A DNA stretch of 64,000 nt from Rhodospirillaceae bacterium (GTDB taxonomy: Bacteria > Pseudomonadota > Alphaproteobacteria > Rhodospirillales > Rhodospirillaceae), in contig JAVJSV010000016.1 in assembly GCA_040219235.1 (NCBI GenBank), forward strand, positions 248,001 to 312,000, written 5' to 3'. Every line of letters starts with the position of its first letter. Position 1 is the stretch's first letter. This document shows, one piece after another, positions 4,767 to 23,277 of this stretch. The notes under the pieces are model-generated. The model was not told the origin of the DNA and did no database searches. It saw nothing but the letters and a program-made list of their open reading frames with translations. A program made the translations under genes and the position numbers.

Positions 4767-4785
4767 TTTTATCTCGCCTGATCCG

Positions 4786-5916: not shown

Positions 5917-6142
5917 TAGATATCTTCCCCTTACCGCTCAAAAATCCGAAATAGAATTCAGACTGTGATTTCCACTTTAAAACCCCTGTCATGGGCCGAG
6001 TTGACCCGCAACGTTCTGAAATAGAAGCGATTTTGCGCGACGACGCAACACTGAACAGTGTATCTCAGAGGTTAATTCAATGCCACGCGGAAGACCCCAG
6101 ATGGAGACGTTCTGGTGATGGCTTTTAAGATGAGAGATTTGA

Positions 6143-7411: not shown

Positions 7412-7491
7412 ACTATGAGCAATTGTTGCGGATAGATGATTAGCCTCATAAAATACGATATACTGTGTCATTGGGTCGAGGAATATACCAT

Positions 7492-8484
7492 ATGCTGAGT
7501 TCAACTGGGCAAACGCGGCTTGTCGCCCTGACTATGATGAGTGTGCTGCTCGCTGGATGCGCTGGTCGACCGCAGCAGACTCAGAGCGTTGACCAAGATT
7601 TTCCATCATATATGGAGCTTGGTCGCGATACCCGCGGTAATCTGGTCACGAGCTACAAAATCGGTAATCCCTATCAGGTTGCTGGAACTTGGTACTATCC
7701 CGCCGAAGACTATGGGTATCGGGAGGAAGGCATTGCCTCGTGGTATGGACCGGGCTTTAACGGCAAACGTACGGCCAACGGCGAAGTTTACGATATGAAT
7801 GCCCTGACGGCAGCTCATAAAACTCTGCCGATACCAAGCGTCGTACAAGTCACGAACCTAGAAAATGGGCGAACGATAAAGCTCAGGATTAATGATCGCG
7901 GCCCTTTCGTTGAAGGACGAATTATCGACCTATCAAAACGAGCGGCGCAATTGCTGGACGTCGAGCGGGCTGGCATAGCACGGGTGCGTGTAGAACTTGT
8001 TCCGGAAGATTCTTTGACCCTGCGGAACATCGCCCTTGATGCAGGAGGCCAGCCAACTCTTTCAGAAATGCCTGGCGTGATAGCCTCTCCTCGTGTTGCT
8101 GTCGTTTCGGAAGCCTTAGCCCCCCCCTCAGTATTGTCGGCACCACTATCGTCAGCACCAGCACCTCCAACTGCAATTGCCTCAACGGCTTTGCCGCCTC
8201 CAGTCACTCCACAGCCAATTGGCACGGCCGGTATAGCAACCGCCAGTACAATAGAGAGTGGCGTCTTCATACAAGCAGGCGCCTTTGCGGATGTAAGCAA
8301 TGCCCGGCGCCTTGAAGCGCAGCTCTCCAGCATGGGAGAGGTTAGCGTTGCCATGGCTGATATTGAAGGTAGCGTGTTCCATCGTGTGCGCATTGGTCCC
8401 TTGGCCAATCGCAGTGCTGCAGAACGGTTACTTTCTGATATGCTGGACCAAGGATTTGAAGGTGCCCGTATTGTTGAAGACTAA
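7492..8484 (+). CDS. rlpA: septal ring lytic transglycosylase RlpA family lipoprotein with SPOR domain
   Basis: This 330-residue outer-membrane lipoprotein acts on denuded glycan strands, usually at the septum. It has a lipoprotein signal ending LLAGC, a double-psi beta-barrel domain near residues 75-165 (GIASWYGPGFNGKRTANGE, AAHKTLPIPS, INDRGPF, IDLSKRAAQLL), a Pro/Ala/Ser-rich linker of about 70 residues and a C-terminal SPOR domain from about 255 (GVFIQAGAFAD). The ATG at 7492 is chosen because GAGG lies about 10 bases upstream and the lipobox is then at the usual place; a GTG at 7465 would add nine residues. Confidence 0.92.
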   Translation: MLSSTGQTRLVALTMMSVLLAGCAGRPQQTQSVDQDFPSYMELGRDTRGNLVTSYKIGNPYQVAGTWYYPAEDYGYREEGIASWYGPGFNGKRTANGEVYDMNALTAAHKTLPIPSVVQVTNLENGRTIKLRINDRGPFVEGRIIDLSKRAAQLLDVERAGIARVRVELVPEDSLTLRNIALDAGGQPTLSEMPGVIASPRVAVVSEALAPPSVLSAPLSSAPAPPTAIASTALPPPVTPQPIGTAGIATASTIESGVFIQAGAFADVSNARRLEAQLSSMGEVSVAMADIEGSVFHRVRIGPLANRSAAERLLSDMLDQGFEGARIVED

Positions 8485-8543
8485 GTGATCTTGCCATCCT
8501 TGTACTTGCCATGCTTGGGCCGCATTGTGAGGCATACAATTGA

Positions 8544-9716
8544 ATGATGACCCTAAATATGAAGAATTCTATCGCGAAACTCTTTGCTGTTTTTATATGT
8601 ATCGTTGTGTCTGCGCCAGCAGCCAATGCAATCGATATTGCAGCCCGAGAATTCATACTCGTTGATTTTCAAACGGGGACGGTGCTGAACAGTCAAAACA
8701 GTGATGAGGCTATGCCACCGTCGTCGATGTCCAAATTGATGACCGCCTATATGGTTTTTGAAGCCATTCATTCAGGCGCTTTGTCCTTAGATGACGAATT
8801 TATGGTTAGCGAGAACGCCTGGCGCGAGGGCGGAGCTGCCTCTGGTGGCTCAACAATGTTTCTGGAGCCAAACTCTCGGGTGCGAGTAGAAGATCTTCTG
8901 CGAGGGATCGTCATTCAATCCGGCAATGACGCCTGCATTGTCGTGGCAGAAAATATGTCTGGTAGTGAAGAGGCTTTCGCTCAACAAATGACGGAGCGAG
9001 CCAAAGAACTGGGGATCACGGGCAGTAACTTTACCAACGCCACGGGATTACCAGACCCCAATCACTACATGACTGCAGATGACCTTGCTTTGCTAGCGCG
9101 ACGCATCATCACTGACTTTCCGGAATATTACTCACTCTATGCAGAGACCGAGTTTAGCTACAACGATATTAAGCAATTTAATCGCAATCCCCTGCTTTAT
9201 CGACCGGGTGGTGCAGATGGCCTAAAGACCGGCCATACGGACATTGCAGGCTACGGTTTAACAGCTTCTGCAATGCGTGATGGCCGCAGGCTTATTTTAG
9301 TGGCAAACGGGATGGCCAGCACTCAAGCTCGCTCCGAAGAGACGGCTAAGCTGATGGATTGGGGCTTCCGGAATTTCACAAACAAGGACCTTTTCCGCGC
9401 AGGAGAGCAGGTCTCAGATGCCGAGGTCTGGTTGGGCTTAGAGCTTACAGTCCCATTGATTATTGAACAGGACGTGACGGTAACAATACCGCGTCAGGCA
9501 TGGCGGACACTTGAGGTGAAGGCCGTCTATGACGGACCGATCGCCGCACCAATTGAACAAGGCACGCAAATTGCGAAGCTTGTTATCAATGGTGAAGGTA
9601 TGGATCCTATCGAATATAATCTCGTCTCGGGTGCTTCAGTCAAACAGCTCGGTTTTGCGGGTCGTATACAAGCTGCCGCTTCACAGATTCTGTTCGGCTT
9701 TTCCAGCGCAAATTAA
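8544..9716 (+). CDS. D-alanyl-D-alanine carboxypeptidase (PBP5/6 family)
   Basis: This 390-residue periplasmic serine peptidase trims the terminal D-Ala of peptidoglycan pentapeptides. After a signal peptide (hydrophobic core AVFICIVVSAPAANA) the three active-site motifs of S11 peptidases are present: SxxK in PSSMSKLM near residue 62, SGN in QSGNDACIV and KTG in GLKTGHTDIAGYG. A C-terminal PBP5-type domain follows. The first ATG at 8544 is used, but 8547 or 8559 (MKNS) would also give a good signal peptide. tmk follows after 33 bases, an arrangement common in alphaproteobacteria. Confidence 0.92.
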   Translation: MMTLNMKNSIAKLFAVFICIVVSAPAANAIDIAAREFILVDFQTGTVLNSQNSDEAMPPSSMSKLMTAYMVFEAIHSGALSLDDEFMVSENAWREGGAASGGSTMFLEPNSRVRVEDLLRGIVIQSGNDACIVVAENMSGSEEAFAQQMTERAKELGITGSNFTNATGLPDPNHYMTADDLALLARRIITDFPEYYSLYAETEFSYNDIKQFNRNPLLYRPGGADGLKTGHTDIAGYGLTASAMRDGRRLILVANGMASTQARSEETAKLMDWGFRNFTNKDLFRAGEQVSDAEVWLGLELTVPLIIEQDVTVTIPRQAWRTLEVKAVYDGPIAAPIEQGTQIAKLVINGEGMDPIEYNLVSGASVKQLGFAGRIQAAASQILFGFSSAN

Positions 9717-9749
9717 AATCTGACTACGTCCAACAAGAAGGACACATCT

Positions 9750-10394
9750 GTGTCAGCAGGGTTATTTATTACGCTTGAAGGTGGCGAGGGGAGTGGTAAG
9801 TCGACCCAAGCGAAGCATCTTAAGCTGCGTCTAGAACAAGCTGGGCATGCCGTCGTGCAAACTCGTGAGCCCGGCGGCTCGGAAGGCGCTGAGGATATCA
9901 GAGCTCTGCTTGTCACCGGCGAGCCTGACCGCTGGGATGGGATGACAGAGGCGCTTCTTCTATTTGCTGCGAGACACGACCATTTAGAGCGCATTATTAA
10001 ACCAGCGCTAAAAGCCGGAAAAATTGTGCTCTGTGACCGTTTTACAGACTCAACCATGGCCTACCAAGGGTATGGTCATAATCTCGGGCGGGAAACTATT
10101 GAAAAGCTAAACGCAGTCGCACTCGACGGTTTTGGACCTGACCTGACTTTGATCCTTGATCTGCCTGTGGATACAGGCTTGTCACGGGCCATGTCTCGTG
10201 GCGATGGAGAACAGCGCTATGAAGATATGGATATCGCATTTCATCAGCGCCTGAGAGACGGCTTTCTTGATATCGCCAAACGTGAACCGGATCGATGCAA
10301 AGTGGTTGATGCCTCAGGGTCGGAAGAGGATGTTGCAGAAAAAATTTCAGGCGTCGTAATGCCGTTGTTGGCCACAGGCAAAGCCTGTGGCTAA
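9750..10394 (+). CDS. tmk: thymidylate kinase
   Basis: The enzyme phosphorylates dTMP to dTDP. The 214-residue protein has the P-loop EGGEGSGKST near residue 11, REPGGSEGAEDIR, the DRF/DRY-type motif LCDRFTDSTMAYQG and a LID region before QRYEDM. GTG is the start. Its last eight bases overlap the GTG start of holB, a widespread tmk-holB arrangement. Confidence 0.95.
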   Translation: MSAGLFITLEGGEGSGKSTQAKHLKLRLEQAGHAVVQTREPGGSEGAEDIRALLVTGEPDRWDGMTEALLLFAARHDHLERIIKPALKAGKIVLCDRFTDSTMAYQGYGHNLGRETIEKLNAVALDGFGPDLTLILDLPVDTGLSRAMSRGDGEQRYEDMDIAFHQRLRDGFLDIAKREPDRCKVVDASGSEEDVAEKISGVVMPLLATGKACG

Positions 10395-11508
10395 GAAACC
10401 GGCTAAAATTGAAGAAGACCTTGTCCCGCATCCGCGCGCGAATGCGTATTTCACCGGACACGATGCAGCCGAAGCCTCGTTTCTGGAGGCATGGTCCTCA
10501 GGACGATTGGCCCATGCCTGGCTGATTTGTGGGCCACGTGGGATCGGAAAAGCGACGTTCGCCTATCGCCTGGCGCGCTTTGCGCTCTCTCAGCCGACCG
10601 CTGGAGCATCAGAAAGCAGTCTATTTGGCGCTGCAGCACCGACTGAGATGTCCTTACAGATATCTAAGGAACATCCGGTCTTCAAGCGAATTGCGGCCTT
10701 GGGCCATGGCGATTTTCGCGCCATTGAGCGTGCGTGGACGGACAACAAGCAAAGCAAAAAAAAGGCATCCATCACCGTTGGCGAAGTCCGCGGCATTGGC
10801 AGCTTCTTAAGGTTAACGCCGGCAGAAGGTGGTTGGCGTGTAGTGATTATCGATGCCGCCGACGAGATGAACCGTAATGCGGAGAATGCGGTTCTGAAGG
10901 TACTTGAGGAGCCGCCAGAAAAAGCTCTTATTTTCCTGGTCGCGCACAATCCGGCCAGGCTTTTGCCGACTATTCGTTCCCGCTGCCGCAAAATTGATTT
11001 ATCGCCACTGCCGTCAAATACAGTCTTAGCCTTGGTAAATCGCTACCGACCGGACATCACAAGTAAGGATATTAAGGCATTGTCAGTCCTGGCAGATGGC
11101 TCGATTGGCCGCGCCATAGAATTGGCCGATGCTGGTGGATTAACCTTATTCCGAAATCTTATCGGTGTTCTAGCATCCATGCCTAAAATGGATATTGGGA
11201 TGGCCCATAGCTTGTCTGATGCTGCGTTGAAGGGGGACGGATTCCGCACCATTGCTGATCTATTAAGCTGGTGGCTGGCACGGATGGTGTCTGTGACAGC
11301 CCGGGAGGGATGGGCCCAGACAGAGGAAATCATACCTGGGGAACACGCCATTGCGGATCGCCTGTGCGCCTCGGCTGGCCTTGATCAATGGGTGGAGGTA
11401 TGGGAAAAGATCGCCCGCCTGTTCGAACGCGCTGACGCAGTGCATCTCGATAAAAAGCGGACCGTTCTCAACGCGCTTCTTGCCATCGAACAACGGGCTG
11501 CAAGTTAG
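10387..11508 (+). CDS. holB: DNA polymerase III delta' subunit
   Basis: This 373-residue clamp-loader subunit has an N-terminal AAA+ fold with a P-loop-like GPRGIGKATF near residue 47, the conserved GEVRGI segment preceding LRLTPAEGGWRVVIIDAADEMN, and the sensor region LEEPPEKALIFLVAHNPARLLPTIRSRCR broken over two motifs. The SRC arginine finger is present. It starts at GTG inside the end of tmk. metG follows after 38 bases. The C-terminal third is divergent, as is usual for delta'. Confidence 0.93.
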   Translation: MAKKPAKIEEDLVPHPRANAYFTGHDAAEASFLEAWSSGRLAHAWLICGPRGIGKATFAYRLARFALSQPTAGASESSLFGAAAPTEMSLQISKEHPVFKRIAALGHGDFRAIERAWTDNKQSKKKASITVGEVRGIGSFLRLTPAEGGWRVVIIDAADEMNRNAENAVLKVLEEPPEKALIFLVAHNPARLLPTIRSRCRKIDLSPLPSNTVLALVNRYRPDITSKDIKALSVLADGSIGRAIELADAGGLTLFRNLIGVLASMPKMDIGMAHSLSDAALKGDGFRTIADLLSWWLARMVSVTAREGWAQTEEIIPGEHAIADRLCASAGLDQWVEVWEKIARLFERADAVHLDKKRTVLNALLAIEQRAAS

Positions 11509-11546
11509 TCTTCAGATCCGAGCCATGGCATCGCGCCGGAGTTATT

Positions 11547-13133
11547 ATGTCAGCCGGATCAGATAAGACCTATTACGTTACGACGCCGATTTATTACGTT
11601 AATGACAAGCCGCATACCGGGCATGCGTACACAACCATAGCCTGCGATGTAATGGCGCGTTTTAAGCGACTGGACGGCTATGACGTTAAGTTCCTGACCG
11701 GAACCGATGAGCACGGCCAGAAGGTCGCAAAGGCAGCAGCCGAGAAGGGGGTGACACCACAGGCATTTACTGACGAAGTATCTCAGACCTTTAATGATCT
11801 GACCGATACGCTTGATGTCACCAACGATGATTTTATCCGTACGACGGAAGAGCGCCATACAAAAGCCTGCCAGGCGTTGTGGACACGGATTGCCGGGAAA
11901 ATCGCCCCGGACGGCAAACCCTGGATTGTTCTGGATACCTATGCGGGTTGGTACTCCGTGCGTGATGAGGCCTATCACACGGAAGACGAGTTAACGGCTG
12001 GTCCCGACGGCATCAAACTCGCCCCCAATGGTAATCCGGTCGAATGGGTCGAGGAAGAAAGCTACTTTTTCCGCCTGTCAGCTGCGGCGCCACTGCTCAT
12101 AGAGTATTACGACGCTCATCCCGATTTCATCGCCCCGAATAGCCGCCGCAACGAAGTGACCAGCTTTGTCAAAGGTGGGCTCAGGGATCTTTCCATCTCT
12201 CGCACAACGTTTGATTGGGGGGTGCCCGTTCCGGGTGATGATAAACATGTGATGTATGTGTGGATTGACGCGCTCACCAATTACCTGACGGCGACCGGCT
12301 ACCCTGATGAAAACGCCAAGGAATACAAAGCCTTCTGGCCTGCTGATCTGCATATGATTGGTAAGGATATTATCCGTTTTCACTGCGTCTATTGGCCTGC
12401 TTTTCTGCTCGCGGCCGATCTGCCACTGCCAAAGCGGATATTTGCCCATGGGTGGTGGACCATTGAAGGCCAGAAAATGTCCAAGTCCCTGGGCAATGCC
12501 ATTGATCCGAACGCTTTGATTGAAGATTACGGCTTGGATCAATTGCGTTACTTCCTGCTGCGGGAGGTTCCGTTTGGGAACGACGGCGATTTCTCCAAAG
12601 TCGCTTTGATCCAACGGGCAAATGGCGAATTGGCCAATGAATTCGGCAACTTATCCCAGCGTGTTCTGTCGATGATTCATAAGAACTGCGACGCAAAAGT
12701 CCCGAGCCCCGAAGAATTCAACGAAGATGACGCTGAAATCCTAGGCATGGCAGCGGCTCTGTTGGAGCCTGTGCGTGACGTGATCGACCGTCAGGCATTT
12801 CATGAGGCGCTCGAGATCATCTGGACCGTTGTCAGAGGCGCCAACGCCTATGTCGATCATCAGGCACCCTGGGTGCTGCGCAAGGAAAACCCCGCGCGTA
12901 TGGCGACAGTGTTGTACGTGCTGACGGACGTGATCCGCATGATCTCGTTGATTATGCAGCCGTTTACGCCCCATGCAGCCGAGGACATCCTCAATCAGCT
13001 ATCCATTCCAGACTCACAACGGGACTTTGAGGCGTTTGCGCCAGGTCATGCGCCGGTGCCGGGTGAGGATTTGCCGAAGCCAGAACCTGTGTTCCAAAAG
13101 CTGGAACTGCCCGAAGAGAACAAAACGGAGTAG
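11547..13133 (+). CDS. metG: methionyl-tRNA synthetase
   Basis: The enzyme charges tRNA-Met. The 528-residue protein contains the class I HIGH-type motif as PHTGHAY near residues 22-28, GTDEHGQKV, and KMSKSLGN near residues 309-316. The zinc-knuckle cysteine pairs of the long MetG form are missing from the connective region, and there is no C-terminal Trbp111 tRNA-binding domain. This places it in the short alphaproteobacterial MetG group. tatD begins four bases after the stop. Confidence 0.95.
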   Translation: MSAGSDKTYYVTTPIYYVNDKPHTGHAYTTIACDVMARFKRLDGYDVKFLTGTDEHGQKVAKAAAEKGVTPQAFTDEVSQTFNDLTDTLDVTNDDFIRTTEERHTKACQALWTRIAGKIAPDGKPWIVLDTYAGWYSVRDEAYHTEDELTAGPDGIKLAPNGNPVEWVEEESYFFRLSAAAPLLIEYYDAHPDFIAPNSRRNEVTSFVKGGLRDLSISRTTFDWGVPVPGDDKHVMYVWIDALTNYLTATGYPDENAKEYKAFWPADLHMIGKDIIRFHCVYWPAFLLAADLPLPKRIFAHGWWTIEGQKMSKSLGNAIDPNALIEDYGLDQLRYFLLREVPFGNDGDFSKVALIQRANGELANEFGNLSQRVLSMIHKNCDAKVPSPEEFNEDDAEILGMAAALLEPVRDVIDRQAFHEALEIIWTVVRGANAYVDHQAPWVLRKENPARMATVLYVLTDVIRMISLIMQPFTPHAAEDILNQLSIPDSQRDFEAFAPGHAPVPGEDLPKPEPVFQKLELPEENKTE

Positions 13134-13137
13134 GGGC

Positions 13138-13917
13138 ATGTTGGTCGACAGTCATTGCCATTTGGACTTTCCTGACTTTCAAGATGACTTAGAGGGCGTG
13201 GTCGGCCGCGCCAGGGAGGCTGGCGTAGGGCACTTCCTGACCATCTGCACCCATATCACTAAGTTTGATCAGGTTCGCGCGGTTGCGGCACGTTTTGATG
13301 ATATGCACTGCACCGTTGGGATTCACCCCCATGAAGCTGAACACGAACCGGAGGTTGATCAGGCGCGGCTTCTAGAGATCGCGACAAATGACCCAAAAGT
13401 CGTGGCGTTTGGTGAAACCGGCTTGGACTTCTTTTACGATCATAGTCCGCGTGAGATTCAAGAACGGCAGTTCCGCACGCATATTGCCGCAGCCCGTGAG
13501 GCCCAACTTCCGATCGTCATCCATACGCGCGATGCGGACCCGGAAATGACGCGTATTCTGGAAGAGGAAATGGCTTCTGGCGCGTTTCCGGGGGTGATAC
13601 ATTGCTTTAGCTCTGGCCCGGAACTTGCTGAAAAAGCAGTAGAATTAGGTCTTTATATTTCCCTGTCCGGCATCGTGACGTTCAAAAAAGCCGAAGACCT
13701 CCGTGAAACCGCCAGGCGTGTGCCTTTGGACAGACTGTTGGTCGAAACAGATTCTCCCTACCTGGCACCTGTGCCTAAGCGCGGTAAACGCAACGAGCCT
13801 GCCTTTGTGGCCCATACGGCCGCCTGCGTGGCTGAATTGCATGGCCTAACCGCCGCGGACTTAGCCACCAAAACCACTGAGAACTTCTTCACCCTATTCA
13901 GCAAAGCAAAAGCCTGA
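13138..13917 (+). CDS. tatD: TatD family metal-dependent hydrolase (putative DNase)
   Basis: This 259-residue amidohydrolase-fold protein shows the metal-binding signature VDSHCHLDFPDF at its start, VGIHPHEAEH, the Glu in AFGETGLDFFYD, IVIHTRDAD, VIHCFSSG and the final Asp in LVETDSPYLAP. The family shows 3'-5' exonuclease or D-tyrosyl-tRNA-type deacylase activity depending on the member; the substrate here is unproved. The ATG at 13138 is preceded by TAGGGGC and lies four bases after the metG stop. An earlier in-frame start at 12973 would overlap metG and is rejected. Confidence 0.92.
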   Translation: MLVDSHCHLDFPDFQDDLEGVVGRAREAGVGHFLTICTHITKFDQVRAVAARFDDMHCTVGIHPHEAEHEPEVDQARLLEIATNDPKVVAFGETGLDFFYDHSPREIQERQFRTHIAAAREAQLPIVIHTRDADPEMTRILEEEMASGAFPGVIHCFSSGPELAEKAVELGLYISLSGIVTFKKAEDLRETARRVPLDRLLVETDSPYLAPVPKRGKRNEPAFVAHTAACVAELHGLTAADLATKTTENFFTLFSKAKA

Positions 13918-13961
13918 TCTGACAAGGTGATATCGTAAGAAGTATTCTTGTAACTCTCTAA

Positions 13962-14942
13962 CTACTGATGATGAATACCGCAGACTTGGGTCATATTAAC
14001 CAGTGAATTAAAACTGGAGTTTTGGATGCCCTGTCCAACAATTGCTGTGTAGGTACTGCCTTGAATTAGCGGCTCAAAGATAAGGTTGGCATGTTGTTGA
14101 TTGTTGGACGGAATCCAATCTACTAGGTCTTCAAAAAATGACATAGGTGAGGCATAGGATGTGTTCGCGGTTGTCGCAATATTGACTACACCCTGCACGA
14201 CGCCAGTGCGAGAGTCAGTTATTGTGACTTGGTAGTCCCTATCACTATTTGCGTAGTTATGTAGAAAAACGAGTGTCGGATAGCCCGAGAGAACGGACGT
14301 ATGCACGTTGACGAGAGCTGAGTTGATGATTGAGTAATCGAACGTAGGGTCGAAAGTGCAAACGCTCATATTCTCAAAAAAGCCATTGGTTCCGTTGTAA
14401 ATGACGTGCTGGTAGCCAACGTAATTCCCTGCACTTGGACTTTTGACATAAAATGAGTACCCCGTGTCACCAGTCAACAACGAGCCGGCTCCTGCCTCAC
14501 TCAGTATCTCGTCCATCGAATATTGAGGCGACGCCTTGTCCGGAATATTGAACGTGGCAGTGCCATATGTGATGGCAGAAACAGAACCGACTACTGACAG
14601 ATCTATAGTGGTCGGCGCTCCGCTCATATTGATAAATCGGAAGTACGATAAGTTACCGTCAGATCCATCAAACGTCGGTGCAATGACCGTGTAAACTGTT
14701 CCGTTGAGAGCTTGTTCGCCCTCCCGGTTTCTCTCTGCGTTAGGGGGTGGGGCTAGCTGTAAGGCTTGCGGTGCATTGAACCCGGCTGGCGCACGGCCAG
14801 TCACATATTCTTCAGGCATTTGCACAACAGAGGTATCCGCAAGGGTGGCGTTTTCTAGAGCGAAAAAGCCAAACACGGATAGAGCAATGCTAAGGCTTGC
14901 GTATAATTTAACTTTAGAATTCAATGCCATAGCAGTACTCAT
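13962..14942 (-). CDS. hypothetical secreted protein with two similar beta-rich modules
   Basis: I do not recognise a family. The 326-residue reading from the ATG at 14942 has a signal peptide (KLYASLSIALSVFGFFAL, cleavage near TLA-DTS). A Pro/Ala-rich stretch precedes a beta-rich body. Two parts look related: SYFRFINMSGAPTTIDLSVV near residues 105-125 and LVFLHNYANSDRDYQVTITD near 240-260. Each is followed about 25 residues later by an S.YSM or S.PM motif and an acidic helix. Two longer start choices (14966, 14978) exist and no ribosome-binding site settles the matter. The gene lies between tatD and the MBL gene on the opposite strand, with AT-rich DNA upstream, and looks like an insertion into an otherwise conserved order. 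Confidence 0.65.
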   Translation of the reverse strand: MSTAMALNSKVKLYASLSIALSVFGFFALENATLADTSVVQMPEEYVTGRAPAGFNAPQALQLAPPPNAERNREGEQALNGTVYTVIAPTFDGSDGNLSYFRFINMSGAPTTIDLSVVGSVSAITYGTATFNIPDKASPQYSMDEILSEAGAGSLLTGDTGYSFYVKSPSAGNYVGYQHVIYNGTNGFFENMSVCTFDPTFDYSIINSALVNVHTSVLSGYPTLVFLHNYANSDRDYQVTITDSRTGVVQGVVNIATTANTSYASPMSFFEDLVDWIPSNNQQHANLIFEPLIQGSTYTAIVGQGIQNSSFNSLVNMTQVCGIHHQ

Positions 14943-15065
14943 CGTGGAATTAAGAGAGCAACCCATAATACAAATCATAAAATTTCATTTAGTGTAACTA
15001 GAAAATATAACAATTTTAACGAGCTAATTTCTACTTTGACCTAATTTTGAGCTTGGATTTAGCAT

Positions 15066-15893
15066 TTGCCAGCAGCCTCAGACCTCAGTGACCGCACTTC
15101 CCGCGACCTAACCGTAACGATCCTGGGCTGCGGTGGAGCAGGGGGCGTGCCCACGGTTTCAGGAGGGTGGGGCGCCTGCAACCCCACCAACCCGCGCAAT
15201 GACAGGCTGCGCGCCTCGGTGCTGGTTGAGCAGGGAGAGACACGCCTGCTCATTGATGCTTCGCCAGATTTACGCGCCCAATGCCTTATCAATAACATTA
15301 TAACGTTGGATGGCGTTCTGTTTACCCATGACCACGCGGACCATACCCATGGGCTCGATGATCTAAGGGAGATCAACCGTGTCATTCATGGCCCGCTGGA
15401 TATCTGGGCCGATCAAGACACCCTAAACGGTCTTATGAGCCGCTATGCTTATGCTTTTGAAGGTATACCCGAAGGGCAGCCTATTTTCCGCCCCTGGCTC
15501 TCACCACATCTGATTACAGCACCCAAAGCGTTCGACTGCGCCGGAGTAACAATAACGCCGTTCCTTCAGGATCATGGCTTTATGGACACGCTGGGCTTTC
15601 GCATCGGGAGTTTCGCGTACTCCACAGACTTGGTGCATCTGCCGGATGCCGCAAAGGATACGTTGCAAAACCTCGATCTTTGGGTTGTCGGAGCCCTGAC
15701 CAATGACAGTAACCATCAGACCCATGTCAGCTTGGACACGGCCTTTGAGTGGATCTCAGAACTGAAACCAAAACGCGCGATCATCACGCATATGGGGCCG
15801 AGCCTGGATTACGAGGCCGTAATGGCCAAATGCCCGGTTGGCGTTGAGCCCGCCTATGATGGATTAATGACGCAGATCAAGAGCGCGATATGA
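15066..15893 (+). CDS. MBL-fold metal-dependent hydrolase, PhnP-like
   Basis: This 275-residue metallo-beta-lactamase-fold phosphodiesterase-like protein begins with VTILGCGGAGGVP and contains the metal-binding motif FTHDHADHTHGLDD, a later His in LQDHGF, an Asp in YSTDLVHLP, and HMG near the end (IITHMGPSLDYE). In related genomes it follows tatD directly. Here an opposite-strand gene intervenes. The frame opens after a TAG at 15060-15062 and contains no ATG or GTG before the conserved core; the only usual start codon is TTG at 15066. The true start could also be lost or unusual. Confidence 0.82.
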   Translation: MPAASDLSDRTSRDLTVTILGCGGAGGVPTVSGGWGACNPTNPRNDRLRASVLVEQGETRLLIDASPDLRAQCLINNIITLDGVLFTHDHADHTHGLDDLREINRVIHGPLDIWADQDTLNGLMSRYAYAFEGIPEGQPIFRPWLSPHLITAPKAFDCAGVTITPFLQDHGFMDTLGFRIGSFAYSTDLVHLPDAAKDTLQNLDLWVVGALTNDSNHQTHVSLDTAFEWISELKPKRAIITHMGPSLDYEAVMAKCPVGVEPAYDGLMTQIKSAI

Positions 15894-16433: not shown

Positions 16434-16883
16434 TTAGTCTGATGAACTGAACATGGCGAATATCTCAGGCCCGGTCATGTTCTGCGTTTCATTGGCAAAG
16501 CTATAATAACTGGGTTTTTCATCGACAAAGACTTGCGTGGTAAAGGCGAGGGTGCCCTCGTCGCACTCAAATAAGCCAACAGGCATCATGTGTTCTTTCG
16601 TTTCTTTGATGCGATAGAACAAATGCGTGCCGCATTTCGCGCAAAAACCGCGCTCGGCCCAATCCGACGAACTAAAGACGGAGATATTCTCCTGGCCCGC
16701 AAATGAGACCTCTGTGCCACAGTTAATCTCGACGTAAGGTCCGCCACTCCAGCGTCGGCACATGCGGCAATGACACGCACCAACATGATTGCTGGCGGCC
16801 TTGGCGGTTATGCTGACAGCACCACACAGGCATTTGCCGTATTTTTCTGAAACGTCTGACATGGTGGTGATCTCCTGTGACAT
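16434..16883 (-). CDS. GFA family (glutathione-dependent formaldehyde-activating enzyme-like) zinc protein
   Basis: This 149-residue protein has the zinc cysteines of the GFA/CENP-V fold: CLCGAV, GACHCRMCRRWSGG and RGFCAKCGTHLFYR. The exact reaction of most family members is unknown, so formaldehyde detoxification should not be assumed. Two starts are possible, each with a good AGGAG-type site about eight bases upstream: the ATG at 16883 and one seven codons later at 16862. It stands alone on the minus strand, just downstream of AT-rich DNA leading to the dif site. Confidence 0.88.
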   Translation of the reverse strand: MSQEITTMSDVSEKYGKCLCGAVSITAKAASNHVGACHCRMCRRWSGGPYVEINCGTEVSFAGQENISVFSSSDWAERGFCAKCGTHLFYRIKETKEHMMPVGLFECDEGTLAFTTQVFVDEKPSYYSFANETQNMTGPEIFAMFSSSD

Positions 16884-17148: not shown

Positions 17149-17176
17149 AATACCCATAATATACATTATGCGACAA
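17149..17176 (-). other. dif: chromosome dimer resolution site dif (left junction, attL)
   Basis: Read on the minus strand, the 28-bp site has the arrangement of bacterial dif. The XerC-binding arm is 17166-17176 and ends CGCATAA, the six-base centre TGTATA is 17160-17165, and the XerD-binding arm is 17149-17159, starting TTATG. The contiguous core GCATAATGTATATTATG is identical to the core of the Escherichia coli site as I know it. The outer positions of both arms differ. It sits where genes on both sides converge. The 29-bp repeat that bounds the inserted element starts exactly at the first base of the centre. Confidence 0.85.
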
Positions 17177-17188
17177 ATGGGTTTCAGA
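17160..17188 (+). repeat. 29-bp direct repeat, left copy (attL side)
   Basis: Identical over 29 bases to 21231-21259. It starts with TATACATTATGCGACAA (dif centre plus XerC arm on the plus strand) and extends 12 bases past the XerC arm. The bases just outside differ between copies (A versus T to the left, T versus A to the right), so the repeat is exact in length. Confidence 0.97.
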
Positions 17189-17201: not shown

Positions 17202-17232
17202 GGTCACTTCGCCTCTAACCAATTAAGTGACC
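17202..17232. repeat. inverted repeat at left end of element
   Basis: GGTCACTT (17202-17209) pairs with AAGTGACC (17225-17232) across a 15-base loop. It lies between attL and the first gene. It could be an operator for the adjacent HTH protein or part of a replication origin; the sequence does not decide. Confidence 0.6.
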
Positions 17233-17266: not shown

Positions 17267-17293
17267 AGGACGACCGTCATGAACGGCCGTCCT
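17267..17293 (+). promoter_or_regulatory. hairpin covering the ribosome-binding site and start codon of the first element gene
   Basis: AGGACGACCGT (17267-17277) can pair with ACGGCCGTCCT (17283-17293), 11 positions with one mismatch. The five-base loop CATGA contains the ATG at 17279. The AAGGA ribosome-binding site (17266-17270) is in the 5' arm. In the mRNA this would limit initiation unless opened by a protein or by translation. The pairing is seen; the control is inferred. Confidence 0.65.
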
Positions 17294-17845
17294 CCAAACC
17301 CAGACCAGAACATCTGTCGTGTGACACTCGATCTTCCATGGGAGATCGCAGAAGTACTCGCTGAGCATGGACCACAGCTCATAGCCGTGATCCAGGAAGC
17401 TGTTGGGCAAAGGTCTAAAGAAACTGAGCGCTGTGCACAGGTCGCTGAAAAGGTTTCTGAGACCGCAGAAGCTAACAAAGCCCGTTGGGCCGCCCTCGCC
17501 GATATTTGCCATCGTGAGATCGACAGACGCTCTAACGGTCCAGGTCAGAAAGATTCAATCTTAAAGGCTTTGGCCTCTGAGCTTGGTCACGACTTTCAGT
17601 TCCTGAAATCTGTATGTCGCATTTACGGAACCAAAATTAAGAAAAACCTTAAGGCTGACCGCGATGCATCGGTCATCGAGCTTTACTTCGATGGTCTTTC
17701 AAACAGCCAAATTGCTGAAAAATTGGCAATAGCGCCTGGGTCCGTTTCTCGCATTCTCAGTGGTCAGAAGAAAAAAATAGCGGAAATTAGGGCCCAAAGA
17801 CCGCCTCCAGGCCGATCTGGTCCGGTGAACGGCGGTGTATCGTGA
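17279..17845 (+). CDS. helix-turn-helix DNA-binding protein of the element
   Basis: This 188-residue protein is not assigned to a named family. The N-terminal part (residues about 10-45, CRVTLDLPWEIAEVLAEHG) is followed by a predicted long helix rich in Glu and Ala. A clear helix-turn-helix lies near residues 140-165 (ELYFDGLSNSQIAEKLAIA, then SVSRILSG). The end is basic and proline-rich. Start choice: ATG 17279 with AAGGA eight bases upstream, lying in a hairpin loop; GTG 17252 is less likely. It overlaps the rep start by four bases (GTGA), so both are co-translated. A regulator or replication/integration accessory role is likely from its position. Confidence 0.75.
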   Translation: MNGRPPNPDQNICRVTLDLPWEIAEVLAEHGPQLIAVIQEAVGQRSKETERCAQVAEKVSETAEANKARWAALADICHREIDRRSNGPGQKDSILKALASELGHDFQFLKSVCRIYGTKIKKNLKADRDASVIELYFDGLSNSQIAEKLAIAPGSVSRILSGQKKKIAEIRAQRPPPGRSGPVNGGVS

Positions 17846-18813
17846 AACACCAGGTAAAGCCGGTCCCGGCGAATGAGGGACGCCAAGCCCCTTCCTTGCC
17901 GAGCAATGAAGGTTCTTTTCCGGAAAAACACAGAAAGTGTTCGACTGATCAGTCACCAAGTCGGGGTCGGGAGCGTATCGGCAGGAGCGGAAACGCGCCG
18001 GAGGCGCGTACCGCCCTGCCCGATAGCGACGGCCCCTCTTCTAGACTTGATAAGGGGACGATTTGTGACCTGAGGGATATCAAACCGCAGTATGAAGCAT
18101 TTCGGCTCCTGCTACGTGACTACGGTCAAGGATTAGTAGAAGCCACGATAACCGTAAATACGAGTTCTAGACCCAATACTGATCTAGTCGGTGACCCGCC
18201 AAAGAAAACGCCAGAACAGGTGCAGGAAAATAAAGCCCGCGCTTATCGAAGAGCCAAAACAGCTGTGCGGCAATCAATTATGGCGGCAAAGCTAGATCAC
18301 CTTTTGACACTTACGTATCGGGAAAACCAAACAGACCATGCGTTAGCGTGGAAACACTTTGGACGATTCATGCGCCTTGTCAGAAAGCATCATCCTAAAG
18401 GTTATCCGTTTGTGGCAGTTTTAGAGCGCCAGAAACGAGGTGCAATGCATGTCCATGCAGCAGTCCATGGTCGCCAGAATGTAAAACTTTTGAGGCGTTT
18501 ATGGCATCAAGCCATTGGTACAACGGATGGAAATATTGACGTTAAGTACTTCCGGGGAAAATTATCCACCCTCTCCCGCTATCTGAGTAAATACATCACT
18601 AAAGACTTGGATACTGAGCACACAGAAGGCCAGCACCGTTATAAACGTTCACGCGGAATAGAGGTCCCTGCCCTGATCGTCATGTTACCTTTCAACGTTG
18701 CAGTAGAAGCTGAAATAACTCAGCTTTTTCAAAGCTGCTCAGCCACTGTCGAGTACTTAGATAATCATCTTGATGACGAAGGCCCTAAGTGGCTTTGGGC
18801 TTGTAGTTGGTAA
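17842..18813 (+). CDS. HUH-family rolling-circle replication initiator (Rep), two-tyrosine type
   Basis: This 323-residue protein would nick one strand of the element and remain bound to the 5' end. Motif I is LDHLLTLTYRENQTD (residues about 151-165). The HUH metal motif is RGAMHVHAAVHG with H203 and H205. The catalytic motif is LSRYLSKYITK with tyrosines at 247 and 251, spaced as in the two-tyrosine initiators of phiX174-like phages. It resembles the phage G2P / ORF2-type replication proteins. The first 75 residues are low-complexity and the DNA there holds a 48-nt hairpin, so this part may serve as origin as much as protein. Start is GTG at 17842, overlapping the HTH gene. No relaxase or primase domain is fused. 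Confidence 0.85.
   Translation: MKHQVKPVPANEGRQAPSLPSNEGSFPEKHRKCSTDQSPSRGRERIGRSGNAPEARTALPDSDGPSSRLDKGTICDLRDIKPQYEAFRLLLRDYGQGLVEATITVNTSSRPNTDLVGDPPKKTPEQVQENKARAYRRAKTAVRQSIMAAKLDHLLTLTYRENQTDHALAWKHFGRFMRLVRKHHPKGYPFVAVLERQKRGAMHVHAAVHGRQNVKLLRRLWHQAIGTTDGNIDVKYFRGKLSTLSRYLSKYITKDLDTEHTEGQHRYKRSRGIEVPALIVMLPFNVAVEAEITQLFQSCSATVEYLDNHLDDEGPKWLWACSW
17977..18024. repeat. 48-nt imperfect hairpin inside rep, candidate rolling-circle origin
   Basis: Nested arms pair: ATCGGCAGG with CCTGCCCGAT (one-base bulge), GCGG with CCGC, then ACGCGCC (17993-17999) with GGCGCGT (18003-18009) across a GGA loop. About 20 base pairs form in total. It falls in the low-complexity N-terminal part of rep. Location of an origin within the initiator gene is known for phiX174-type phages. 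No nick site can be named from sequence alone. Confidence 0.55.
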
Positions 18814-18849: not shown

Positions 18850-19515
18850 CTAAGTCTGGGTTCCGTATAACTTTTCTTCAATCTTTGCCAACTCTTCAAG
18901 AGTAATATTAGGGTTGTTTTTAGACATGGAGAGAAAGAGTTCGCCATGTCTAAGTATTACGTTAGCGAATGCGCCTTTTGTAAGACCTGAAGAACTTAGA
19001 CCGATATCCTTCCTGATGGCACGAATAAAGTCATCCATAAGATAGAGTGTCCTCGCATCTGGAACGCCTTTTTTCATGTGGTTTGACCAAGCAAAATATG
19101 TTTTTAGTACATTGCTTCCACCCCAAATGATCAACTTTTGCTGCCAATTTCTTAGGAATTTGACAAGTTCTTCATCTGCTACTGTCTCGTCAGTATTATT
19201 TTCCGTGTCAGTAGAATTGGTCGGAGCCATTAACTTGAAGAATTCAGTTAAGAATGCTTCATACATCTCAAGCTTGTCGGCTCTAAAATGTGATTCTATC
19301 TCTTTTTTTCGCTCGTAATATCTACCGAGCATTACTGTCAACGTGGCAGCAAATATAGTTGTAATAGCAGTTAATGCGCCAACAGCAAGTGTTTCATTGG
19401 TACTTGATAGAGCACCCCAGATACCAACTATCGCTTCATACACAAGCCATAGAATTCCGCCCATAATGGCTAGGAATAAAATGCTAGAAAAAAAGACCTT
19501 AGCTTTTTGCCTCAT
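18850..19515 (-). CDS. unknown membrane protein carried by the element, opposite orientation
   Basis: I do not recognise a named family. The 221-residue protein has two hydrophobic segments near residues 8-35 (VFFSSILFLAIMGGILWLVY) and 42-66 (LAVGALTAITTIFAATLTVM). A charged stalk (GRYYERKKEIESHFRADK) and a soluble, mostly helical domain of about 140 residues follow. ATG at 19515 gives a normal membrane start; a TTG at 19551 would add 12 residues. The DNA is more AT-rich than rep and the gene points against all others in the element, as cargo genes often do. A role in immunity to related phages or in host defence is possible but unproved. Confidence 0.7.
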   Translation of the reverse strand: MRQKAKVFFSSILFLAIMGGILWLVYEAIVGIWGALSSTNETLAVGALTAITTIFAATLTVMLGRYYERKKEIESHFRADKLEMYEAFLTEFFKLMAPTNSTDTENNTDETVADEELVKFLRNWQQKLIIWGGSNVLKTYFAWSNHMKKGVPDARTLYLMDDFIRAIRKDIGLSSSGLTKGAFANVILRHGELFLSMSKNNPNITLEELAKIEEKLYGTQT

Positions 19516-19664
19516 AAGTTTCAGATGCCAAATGTAATGAATGATCAGCAAATCTACTTTAGATAGTAATTAACGCATAGCGCTATTATTCATTAATATA
19601 TTTTTTAGTAGACTTTGATAATCTACTAGGTCATGGTATTTCAAATACTACTGATTGGCTGGTT

Positions 19665-20042
19665 ATGACAGAACGACTCACCGATAAAGAACTACACGAT
19701 AAAATACAGAGTTCGATTAAGGACTTTTCCGGTTTCACACCAAGCCTGGAAACCGCTATTGGCGCACTTTTTATCGGAAAGGCCATGGGTTGGGAGGTGC
19801 TCTACCTTATCCATAGCCAAGCCACGATACGCAAATACGAAAAAATTCTTGGCATTAGATACAAAGATCAGATGGACGCGAGCACCGAATTGTCACGCAA
19901 GAGTTATGTGTGGGGATGGACTAAAAAATTTAATGCTTTTTGGAACGTCGTCCGCGGTCAAGAGAAACGAGTGGATAGGACCAGACTCGAAGAAAAACCG
20001 GTCGATGAGTCTGATATTCACGAGGAAGGAAACAAAAAATGA
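19665..20042 (+). CDS. small hypothetical protein of the element
   Basis: I do not recognise this 125-residue protein. It has a mixed N-terminal half with a hydrophobic patch (AIGALFIGKAMGWEVLYLIH), a Lys/Arg/Trp-rich middle (SYVWGWTKKFNAFWNVVRG) and a charged C-terminal tail. No clear signal peptide or membrane segment is seen. The ribosome-binding site is weak. Its stop overlaps the start of the next gene (ATGA), so the two are coupled and probably act together. Confidence 0.65.
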   Translation: MTERLTDKELHDKIQSSIKDFSGFTPSLETAIGALFIGKAMGWEVLYLIHSQATIRKYEKILGIRYKDQMDASTELSRKSYVWGWTKKFNAFWNVVRGQEKRVDRTRLEEKPVDESDIHEEGNKK

Positions 20043-20449
20043 GCATCAGGTACTTCGTGGCTTTTTATAACTGGGATGACCCAGAGGTAAACAACGAACA
20101 TACGCCCGACACTTTTCAAGATGAAGGACCGCAAGAATCTGAGGTTGCTAGAGCTCGTGTTGAAAAAGAGGCATTTAACTTGCTCTCACAGTGCCAAGAA
20201 ATATGGAGCGTTGGTTTGCTCGAATTATTGATTTCACCAAACGGCTATGACGAAGCGGAGGAGACGGGAACGGTTACATCACTTGAAAAACACTATGATT
20301 TTAACGGCGATTTTAAAGAATTAAAAATTCGCTTGAGCAAGGAGATCAACGCATACCTATCTCGTCGATCCCGAACAGAAGAGATGCGGCTAACAATAAG
20401 AGATACAAGATTTCCTAAATATGAAACGGCTCAGATCGAAATGACCTGA
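20039..20449 (+). CDS. small acidic hypothetical protein of the element
   Basis: This 136-residue protein is unknown to me. The first half is acidic (PDTFQDEGPQESEVA), followed by a predicted helix and a mixed alpha/beta second half ending in a basic stretch. It overlaps the gene before it by four bases. Its stop codon lies in the loop-and-arm region of a hairpin at 20426-20454, which may end the transcript. A toxin-antitoxin pair with the upstream gene is conceivable from size and coupling, but no known toxin motif is present. Confidence 0.65.
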   Translation: MSIRYFVAFYNWDDPEVNNEHTPDTFQDEGPQESEVARARVEKEAFNLLSQCQEIWSVGLLELLISPNGYDEAEETGTVTSLEKHYDFNGDFKELKIRLSKEINAYLSRRSRTEEMRLTIRDTRFPKYETAQIEMT

Positions 20450-20520: not shown

Positions 20521-21183
20521 ATGACGTCATCTAATGATGGTAATGATAATGACTCAGGTGGACCTGAGCAACTACCGCAAGTCCGTCGAGACAAAACAAA
20601 TCCTGTCCATGATATCCAAGCTTCGATAGCTGGCGAGGAAAGCGTCGATGTGTGGCGTCAAGCCTGTGCTGTATTTCAAGGCAACCCTTCAAGGCAGATA
20701 TTGGTTTTTGGCTTAACTCACTCAGACGGTCTAGAGCCGTTTATGGAAGAGTTCGCTTTTGCGATCGCAAAAAAAGTCGTCGCGATACAGGACAACAAAT
20801 TGCCTTTGCCCCCAGAGCCAAAGAGCTTTGCAGAAGCCTCAGATAACAAACAGATCAACAGGATAAAGAGCCGCAACTTGGTTACAGGATTGTTGTTCGC
20901 TTCCTTTGTTCGTCGTTGGAAAAAAAGCGGTCTTGAAGAGGTGATTGCACTCACCAATCTCGCCCAGCTTTATTCACGCCCAAAATCAGAAATCAAACTG
21001 CTAATCAAATACGCTGCAAGTCTTCGATGGAAGCGCATCGAACAAATGAGGGCGACGCTAGTGCCGAAATGGGAAGCCCAAGGTTGGACAGCCCGGGAGA
21101 TCGGTCGACGGTTAAACGTGACACGGCAATATGCCAAGCGATTGATGAACGAGCTTAAATGGGAAATGGAGGAAGCAAAGTGA
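20521..21183 (+). CDS. helix-turn-helix protein at the right end of the element
   Basis: This 220-residue protein is unassigned. The N-terminal 25 residues are low-complexity (Asp/Asn/Gly/Ser). The middle is mostly helical. The C-terminus carries a helix-turn-helix (WTAREIGRRLNVTRQYAKRL, residues about 190-209). It has the best ribosome-binding site of the element, AGGAGG ten bases before the ATG. It ends 47 bases before the right repeat. Its place beside attR would suit a protein helping Xer recombination or excision, or a repressor; this is inference. Confidence 0.75.
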   Translation: MTSSNDGNDNDSGGPEQLPQVRRDKTNPVHDIQASIAGEESVDVWRQACAVFQGNPSRQILVFGLTHSDGLEPFMEEFAFAIAKKVVAIQDNKLPLPPEPKSFAEASDNKQINRIKSRNLVTGLLFASFVRRWKKSGLEEVIALTNLAQLYSRPKSEIKLLIKYAASLRWKRIEQMRATLVPKWEAQGWTAREIGRRLNVTRQYAKRLMNELKWEMEEAK

Positions 21184-21230
21184 ATACCTACCCTCACCTG
21201 CTTAGTTATGAAACTGAGCGGTCAAGATTT

Positions 21231-21259
21231 TATACATTATGCGACAAATGGGTTTCAGA
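21231..21259 (+). repeat. 29-bp direct repeat, right copy (attR side)
   Basis: Identical to 17160-17188. Here the dif centre (21231-21236) and XerC arm (21237-21247) are intact, but the position of the XerD arm (21220-21230, GGTCAAGATTT on the plus strand) does not match the dif consensus. Such a half-poor site is expected at one junction of an element that supplies only a XerC-competent attachment site. Confidence 0.95.
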
Positions 21260-21290: not shown

Positions 21291-22034
21291 TTAAGAGAAT
21301 ATCAAAAGACCTAAAGCAATCAGGAGGCCAAGGCCGATCTGAACAGCAGCTAAGATCGAGCGTGTGTTCCCCCGGCCAAATCTCTCCCGTAATTGCTGCA
21401 AATGCGCCTTCCTGATTTCCTTAAGGTCAACGACATACTGGGCTTGAGCGATCGCGACAAAGGCCCTCAACCCAGATCGGGCCTGATCAGGATCAAGGGC
21501 CTGGCTTCTGTAATCCTTAAGGGTATCTGCGAGTTCCCTCAGAAAAACGACACCCTCTGGCTTGCCTTTGGGAAATTCAGCCTCCCCAACAAAACAGATC
21601 AATGATTGAATTGATGCTCTGGGAAAAAGGTCCTGGGCAATCCGGATATGCAGTTTGTTCTGCATAATTGGATTCTGAAATTTGAACTTAAAACGACCAA
21701 GTTTCTGGGTCCAACGCCCCTCACCAGCCTGACCAAAAATTGCGCCCGCGTAATTCTTAGTCTCGATTATCACGAGATGACCTGCGATGAGGACAGCATG
21801 GTCGATCTGAGTGAGACGATCATTTTCATCCTGAAGATAGGCATCATCGACACATTCAAACCCGTGGCGCTTAATTACCGACTTAACGAGACGCTCGCCA
21901 AACCACCCTTTAATTTTTGGTTTGAGATATTGAGCAATGCCCGATCCGATGAGCATGAACGGAATAAGCCAGAAGAGGTTTTGAAGCGCGGCAAACAAGG
22001 GCGCAAAAATAGTCACAAAAACCCCACCACACAT
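21291..22034 (-). CDS. NERD domain-containing membrane protein
   Basis: This 247-residue protein has an N-terminal hydrophobic segment (about residues 8-30), a nuclease-related NERD domain and a C-terminal hydrophobic segment (about 225-245). Putative catalytic residues of the PD-(D/E)xK-like fold are visible: E47 in WFGERLV, D78 in TQIDHAVL and the E-x-K pair in IIETKNYAG (91 and 93). ATG 22034 is the longest start; a GTG at 22016 has GGTGGGG just upstream and may be the real one. It is the first chromosomal gene right of the element. NERD proteins are often linked to DNA processing, but the function is unknown. Confidence 0.82.
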   Translation of the reverse strand: MCGGVFVTIFAPLFAALQNLFWLIPFMLIGSGIAQYLKPKIKGWFGERLVKSVIKRHGFECVDDAYLQDENDRLTQIDHAVLIAGHLVIIETKNYAGAIFGQAGEGRWTQKLGRFKFKFQNPIMQNKLHIRIAQDLFPRASIQSLICFVGEAEFPKGKPEGVVFLRELADTLKDYRSQALDPDQARSGLRAFVAIAQAQYVVDLKEIRKAHLQQLRERFGRGNTRSILAAVQIGLGLLIALGLLIFS

Positions 22035-22181: not shown

Positions 22182-22553
22182 ATGTCCCTCGGTGCTTTCT
22201 CGCTCAGCCTTTCGGTCAAAGATCTCGCTGCGTCGAAAGACTTTTATGCCAAGCTCGGGTTCAGCCCGTTTGGCGGCGATGAAGCCCAAGGCTGGTTGAT
22301 TATGAAATCGGATAGCTGCGTAATCGGTTTATTCCAGGGCATGTTTGAAAAGAACATGCTGACGTTTAATCCGGGCTGGGGCGAAAATGCACAGCCTCTC
22401 GGTAACTTTACCGATGTGCGTGACCTTCAGAAGCAACTTAAAGCCGCTGGAATTGCTTTAGAAACGGAAGCCGATGAAACCACATCAGGCCCGGCCAGTT
22501 TTGTGGTTCATGACCCTGATGGAAACCCAATATTGGTGGATCAGCACGTTTAA
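22182..22553 (+). CDS. VOC family protein (glyoxalase/bleomycin resistance-like)
   Basis: This 123-residue protein has the paired beta-alpha-beta-beta-beta modules of the vicinal oxygen chelate fold. The start is [20 protein letters not shown] and the end [17 protein letters not shown] carries the usual DPDGN.I motif. It stands alone between the NERD and SRAP genes. The substrate is unknown; members include lactoylglutathione lyases, extradiol dioxygenases and antibiotic-binding proteins. Confidence 0.87.
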
Positions 22554-22593: not shown

Positions 22594-23277
22594 TTATACC
22601 GCCAAACTGAGTTGGTTTTTATCGACCGCCTTGGGCCGGTCAAACAACGACTTGGCCACTGGCTCGATCACCAGATCATCCCAGTCATAGGGCTTGCAGA
22701 TGTTCCGAAGATCCGCAGGGCCCGCTTCAGCTGACAACCACGTTTTAAGGCTCGCATCGTTTAATATGACGGGCATGCGGTCGTGAATTTCAGCCGCCAC
22801 TTCATTTGGCTCGGTTGTGACCACCACAAAATGACACTGTTTGGTCTTAGAGTTGAACGTGTGCAGGCCGGCGATGGCCATAAAGCAGCTAGCGCTATCA
22901 TTTTTTCGCGAGATCTTCCACGGGGTGCGGGTGCCGTCAACCGCCCTCTTCCACTCGTAGTATCCAGATACCGGCACCGCACAGCGTCGCGATTGGAACG
23001 CATCACTGAACATAGGCATCACATCCAAGGTTTCGCATCTGGCGTTTGTGACCGGGGTGATCCGGCCCTTAGAACTGGGAAAGCCCCAAATTGCCAAATC
23101 TAGAAACCGGCCGCCTACTCCTTGGCGAAGTATCGGGTGGACGGCGTTTGACCGGATGACCGCAGAGGGGGTGAAGGCCGGATGAGTTCCGGTATCAGGG
23201 CTATCGGCATCAGAATGAAGGCCGTAATACTCCCGCACTTCCTGCCAGGTTTTATAAGCGGCCAATGCAACGCACAT
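22594..23277 (-). CDS. SOS response-associated peptidase-like protein (SRAP, YedK/HMCES family)
   Basis: This 227-residue protein belongs to the family that crosslinks to abasic sites in single-stranded DNA through Cys2. Cys2 is present after the initiator Met, the Asn in TPVTNARCETLD, the Glu in GYYEW and the His in HDRMPVIL. The usual MCGR start is replaced by MCVAL, and the first 30 residues are more divergent than normal. Activity is still plausible because the four key residues are kept. No SOS box was recognised upstream by eye. Confidence 0.88.
   Translation of the reverse strand: MCVALAAYKTWQEVREYYGLHSDADSPDTGTHPAFTPSAVIRSNAVHPILRQGVGGRFLDLAIWGFPSSKGRITPVTNARCETLDVMPMFSDAFQSRRCAVPVSGYYEWKRAVDGTRTPWKISRKNDSASCFMAIAGLHTFNSKTKQCHFVVVTTEPNEVAAEIHDRMPVILNDASLKTWLSAEAGPADLRNICKPYDWDDLVIEPVAKSLFDRPKAVDKNQLSLAV

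Follow-up and report, generated by a model that had tools for sequence, protein, structure and literature searches.

The window (the whole 64,000-nucleotide stretch analysed, positions 248001-312000 of the 594,810-bp contig C16) comes from a draft genome of 3,972,475 bases (3.97 Mb) in 21 contigs and contains a recombination site that reads on the minus strand as TTGTCGCATAA-TGTATA-TTATGGGTATT, the 11+6+11 layout of dif. The site occupies 265,149-265,176 of the contig and lies between a GFA-family gene and a gene for a helix-turn-helix protein, HTH1, and therefore outside any evident coding sequence. To its right a set of mostly plus-strand genes runs as far as a second, incomplete site, beyond which two further genes precede a chromosomal gene that we take to be SRAP/YedK-like. 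The initial annotation had named the first site a candidate chromosomal dif with a XerC arm, a six-base centre and a XerD arm on the minus strand and with no coding role, and this description was borne out. Its remark that coding strands change direction at the site holds directly beside the site and at the level of the replichores, as judged by GC skew and KOPS-like motifs, although the genes directly to the right of dif depart from it. Coordinates of all features are collected in the table.

Table. Features at and around dif, in window positions.
Feature	Position	Strand	Evidence or remarks
Metallo-beta-lactamase-fold gene	15066-15893	+	Chromosomal, on the XerD side of dif; marks the ancestral dif locus; tblastn
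GFA-family gene	16434-16883	-	
Complete dif and first attachment site of the element	17149-17176	-	XerC arm 17166-17176, centre 17160-17165, XerD arm 17149-17159; core match, profile, GC skew, KOPS, synteny
29-bp direct repeat, copy 1	17160-17188		Spans centre and XerC arm plus 12 bp of outer flank
Inverted repeat GGTCACTT(N15)AAGTGACC	17202-17232		In the gap between dif and the first gene; unique in the window; 0 in 100 shuffles
HTH1, helix-turn-helix protein	17279-17845	+	Weak HTH family matches; long helix and C-terminal HTH predicted
Rep, rolling-circle replication initiator, REP_ORF2-G2P family	17842-18813	+	PF23343, 1.6e-14; phrog_3419, 1.1e-50
Cargo gene, possible SLATT-like membrane protein	18850-19551	-	PF18142, 0.0031; NF033635, 0.0013; weak, below cut-off
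orf125, conserved core protein	19665-20042	+	42-45% identical in G079; structure predicted with low confidence (mean pLDDT 53.8)
orf136	20039-20449	+	Not found in the second element (G079)
HTH2, second helix-turn-helix protein	20521-21183	+	Adjoins the half-site; 36-37% identical in G079
Half dif site, other attachment end of the element	21220-21247	-	Perfect XerC arm 21237-21247, centre 21231-21236; degenerate XerD arm 21220-21230
29-bp direct repeat, copy 2	21231-21259		100% identical to copy 1
NERD-domain gene	21291-22034		
Glyoxalase-like gene	22182-22553		
SRAP/YedK-like gene (presumed), chromosomal	22594-23277	-	XerC side; 5.4 kb from dif here

An exact match to the 18-bp core of the site, CGCATAATGTATATTATG, occurs once in the entire draft genome. 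Relaxing the search to three or fewer mismatches added four matches across the draft genome, among them the opposite-strand reading of dif itself and the incomplete site, and no superior core match emerged elsewhere; the chance expectation at this tolerance was 0.07 in 100 dinucleotide shuffles of the window. A profile made from the dif sites of 50 relatives, a sample that is not unbiased because the relatives were chosen by core match, gave 45.1 bits at dif, 17.1 bits at the incomplete site and 6.5 bits at the next place on contig C16. The core recurred at two or fewer mismatches in 52 of the 61 genomes searched (own genome included), mostly once per genome.

The site also sits where a terminus would be expected. 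Cumulative GC skew along contig C16 reaches its maximum at 269,366, 4.2 kb from dif, and the peak moves to 2.2 kb from dif once the bases of the intervening element described below are excluded from the sum; the published median is 7,277 bp (PMC2731167). The genome encodes XerD on contig C11 (328.7 bits, slightly below the curated cut-off of 329.6), XerC on contig C12 (315.7 bits, below the curated cut-off of 335.15) and an FtsK-gamma domain (98.2 bits). The motif GGGNAGGG, taken over from E. coli and presumed here to be KOPS-like, occurs on contig C16 32 times on the plus strand and three times on the minus strand to the left of dif, and twice on the plus and 42 times on the minus strand to the right. 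The best single switch point, with which 74 of the 79 motifs agree, falls in the interval 254,898-266,014, which holds dif and excludes the incomplete site (269,231). Relatives carry dif at the same gene junction, and the metallo-beta-lactamase-fold gene on its XerD side was found by tblastn in 39 of the 52 relatives' dif loci, many of which extend 1.5 kb to each side. Thus, we conclude that 17149-17176 on the minus strand is the chromosomal dif, the chromosome-dimer-resolution site of a Rhodospirillales bacterium, and that it locates the terminus of replication in this genome. Taken alone, this call is ordinary; as an account of the locus it is correct but incomplete, because the initial annotation overlooked a 29-bp repeat that makes dif an attachment site of an integrated element as well.

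Positions 17160-17188 recur, 100% identical over 29 bp, at 21231-21259, 4071 bp away. Through the second copy, the XerC arm and centre of the incomplete site match dif perfectly; its XerD arm, AAATCTTGACC, is degenerate, scoring -15.4 against 7.4 to 18.0 in the 50 relatives and lying inside the range of random 11-mers on the XerD columns (mean -21.0, 99th percentile -1.6). Chance repetition is ruled out, since the 17-bp half-site TTGTCGCATAATGTATA is present exactly twice in the genome, at dif and at the incomplete site, and the next match has two mismatches. The two Xer-type sites are in direct orientation and flank the element at dif. Identity between them continues for 12 bp beyond the XerC arm (17177-17188 and 21248-21259), an extension that is absent in the related element of genome G079 and that Xer exchange alone does not explain. 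A similar extension on the XerC-arm side was seen at locus L112 and one of only 1 bp at L080, and CCCAT or CCAT directly outside the XerC arm is common to several chromosomal dif sites.

The 4,071 bp between the sites have a GC content of 0.454, compared with 0.522 for the contig, and 9 of 1,182 windows of equal size were as low. The Rep protein retains HxH and YLxKY motifs that are conserved in three aligned relatives; no relatives were found among PDB sequences, and none was confirmed in IMG/VR. HTH1 is modelled with a long helix (residues 21-84) followed by a C-terminal HTH at a mean pLDDT of 80.7, and in a fold search against PDB and BFVD nothing reached E<=0.001, generic HTH domains being among the matches listed. 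We consider HTH1 a candidate regulator or Xer accessory factor, and the inverted repeat ahead of it may be an operator or a replication-origin hairpin. Homology between HTH1 and HTH2 was rejected (hhalign probability 2%). HTH1, orf125 and HTH2 had no relatives in the plasmid collection, and the cargo gene drew no PADLOC match. No Pfam integrase family was detected among the six element proteins of at least 125 aa, and the sole match to a PHROGs integration category joined the HTH region of HTH1 weakly (0.005) to a transposase family.

A second element of this kind was found in another genus. On contig JAIBCD010000080 of genome G079, a Rep 56-58% identical to the one described here lies between a half-site and dif that are 4,294 bp apart, with the element in the same orientation relative to dif. 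HTH1 (43% identical), orf125 and HTH2 are also present, whereas the cargo genes differ. The six centre bases are identical to those of dif in both elements, and the XerD arm of the G079 half-site, GGCCGCCCCGG, scored -32.2, again far from the range of the relatives' dif sites. In a third genus (G007), decayed pieces of HTH1 (30% identical) and Rep adjoin dif on the same side, and no distal half-site was detectable near them. Neither the Rep of G024 nor the more distant Rep of G205 has a dif-like half-site nearby, which implies that this family of Rep proteins has no strict link to dif. Nor was a half-site found near Rep in G089 or G142, but these two are uninformative, the contig being short in the former and the match weak in the latter. 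An HTH protein that adjoins dif in G052 was not accepted as a homologue of HTH1 (hhalign probability 27%).

These comparisons bear on two other accounts of the locus. The first holds that dif is a plain chromosomal site and that no mobile element is involved, the 21231 repeat being either a fossil or the product of an unrelated duplication. The evidence for dif is indeed independent of any element, and relatives of Rep are rare, being present in 5 of 73 family, 7 of 317 order and 1 of 385 class genomes with the own genome counted each time; yet the same succession of half-site, element and dif recurs with homologous genes in another genus, and the enclosed DNA combines low GC with a rolling-circle Rep, so that we regard this account as highly improbable. 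The second holds that the element is an immobile remnant of a small virus, a filamentous or other ssDNA phage, and not an autonomous plasmid-like or satellite element. The best phage match of Rep, an Inoviridae record (MW202882) at 40.7% identity over 53% of the query, and the decayed copy in G007 speak for such an origin. Against it, none of the six larger element proteins matched a capsid, coat or Zot family in Pfam and PHROGs searches, Zot (PF05707) has no match in the genome, for which reason a filamentous prophage was rejected, and the core genes have intact reading frames in the window, with the same core kept in G079. A virus remnant is therefore unlikely, if less so than a plain dif.

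The loci of other species in the genus argue for an insertion on the XerC side of dif. Relatives of the SRAP-like gene were found at all six same-genus dif loci, ending approximately 50 bp from the XerC arm in four of them and 1.4 and 3.3 kb away in the other two, whereas in the window the element, the NERD gene and the glyoxalase-like gene intervene between this gene and dif. The greater spacing here implies that DNA was inserted on that side. The NERD-domain and glyoxalase-like genes, which stand between the half-site and the SRAP-like gene, have no relatives in the six same-genus dif loci, which suggests another insertion, and the locus may thus have experienced more than one such event. 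No near-identical genome lacking the element was found, and the empty-site argument draws on other species of the genus.

Integrative mobile elements exploiting Xer (IMEXs) offer a framework for these observations. From the two sites, the repeat, the gene content, the second copy in another genus and the element-free ancestral locus in relatives, dif is very probably one end of an integrated 4.07-kb, integrase-less IMEX of the TLC-phage type that is recombined by the host Xer proteins, most likely in the TLC order. In the putative mechanism, the element as a circle would have an attachment site whose XerC arm and centre are perfect and in which no XerD arm is recognisable, and host XerC and XerD would recombine this circle with dif to yield a complete dif at one end and the half-site at the other; with a complete dif left at one end, the host retains a working site. 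XerD exchange would come first and XerC exchange second, and the reaction would be reversible, as in TLC phage. This order is favored because the centre is fully identical and the XerD arm alone is missing. Once excised, the element would replicate by rolling circle through its own Rep, and one of its HTH proteins might help to assemble or activate the recombination complex. By analogy with XafT in TLC, both HTH proteins are candidates for regulation or Xer activation. XafT carries DUF3653 (PF12375), for which no match was found in the six-frame translation of the genome.

The site anatomy fits either TLC phage or the gonococcal genomic island (GGI), and the small size and replication gene place the element nearer TLC. 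In favor of a route other than that of TLC, whether CTX- or VGJ-type integration through XerC alone or an FtsK-driven reaction as in the GGI, the XerC arm is the part of the half-site that is intact, and the GGI, which is described as FtsK-dependent, likewise joins an intact XerC arm and centre to a divergent XerD arm (PMC5357621); an FtsK-gamma domain is also encoded in this genome. CTX and VGJ sites, in contrast, are described as having no homology on the XerD side of the centre (PMC4246890), whereas all six centre bases are identical here. Since this identity holds in both elements, XerD exchange is not blocked, and we judge the non-TLC routes together to be rather improbable without being negligible. 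A CTX-like folded attachment site received no support from single-strand folding around dif (z of -1.18). More speculatively, and with more doubt than belief, the preferred TLC-type reading might be extended to a new Rhodospirillales family of satellites or plasmids that lack an integrase, replicate by rolling circle and reside at dif, with HTH1, Rep, orf125 and HTH2 as its core and with one HTH protein as a new type of Xer activation factor that is not related to XafT and enables XerD to work without a XerD arm.

Other dif-associated DNA was encountered in the wider survey. A scan for NTGTCGCATAATNTATA gave at least one match in 141 of 317 order genomes, and six of these had a pair on a single contig (G000, G079, G221, G222, G217, where the pair is in opposite orientation, and G052), the paired sites being ~11 kb apart in G221, G222, G217 and G052. 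The loci L111 (G221), L112 (G222) and L113 (G217), all from one genus, have ~11 kb between a half dif site and a complete dif; the interval in L111 contains podovirus-like tail and internal virion protein genes, and in L113 the half-site and dif are in opposite orientation. At L114 (G052), positions 3754-15040 hold a corticovirus-like provirus at dif with a P2 coat C-terminal domain, a packaging ATPase-like protein and an endolysin, and an HTH-type protein adjoins the complete dif. The exact half-site was further present on 17 IMG/VR contigs (L125-L141); on 13 of them the XerD-arm score did not reach the 99th percentile of random 11-mers. Chance may account for L131 and L137 at least, given their low GC and identical context, and the L131 site lies inside a reading frame. 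A common arrangement recurs on several of these contigs, in which genes for a resolvase, for an HTH-looking protein and for a small protein directly precede the half-site and a YqaJ gene follows it; on several, CCCAGTR or CCCTGTA occupies the outer XerD arm position. A weaker dif-like site, CGCATAATGCATATCATT, was noted at G000:C12:406992-407013, with a further tyrosine recombinase match ~2.5 kb away.

The attachment-site layout of the TLC type, in which the XerC arm and centre are kept and the XerD arm is lost, thus occurs in Alphaproteobacteria, here on small, putatively rolling-circle elements that have homologous cores in two genera. Activation of XerD by one of the element's HTH proteins, if it takes place, would represent a second way round FtsK control, unrelated to XafT, and would provide a small system for studying Xer action on a site without a XerD arm.

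Among known systems, the dif of Magnetospirillum magneticum AMB-1, published by Carnoy and Roten in 2009 and located near the GC-skew maximum, shares with the present site the XerC arm and centre TTGTCGCATAATGTATA and the inner XerD arm TTATGG, and differs in the outer XerD arm, CGACG as against GTATT here (PMC2731167). The TLC satellite phage of Vibrio cholerae resembles the element in being small, located at dif and integrase-less, with a replication module and, as described, no virion genes (PMC4246890). Its attachment site is reported to have a XerC arm and centre that are nearly those of dif and a XerD arm of very little similarity, and its exchange to proceed reversibly by XerD first and XerC second without FtsK (PMC4246890, PMC5357621); XafT is mentioned in PMC9765430. 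The element differs from TLC phage in its Rep of PF23343, in having no DUF3653 that we could find and in its alphaproteobacterial host. The GGI is similar in its intact XerC arm and centre, its divergent XerD arm and the host dif kept at the other end, and dissimilar in its 57-kb size, type IV secretion system and reported dependence on FtsK (PMC5357621, PMC9765430). Escherichia gokushovirus prophages and Jorvik-like phages, like the element, are integrase-less and reside at dif or dif-like sites, host Xer being required for the former and proposed for Jorvik (PMC7062461, PMC10589892), but these phages encode virions and no virion gene was recognised in the element. The literature searched yielded no described Rhodospirillales or rolling-circle element at dif and no description of this gene set; in its mode of attachment, the element joins the known class of IMEXs with a TLC-like site.
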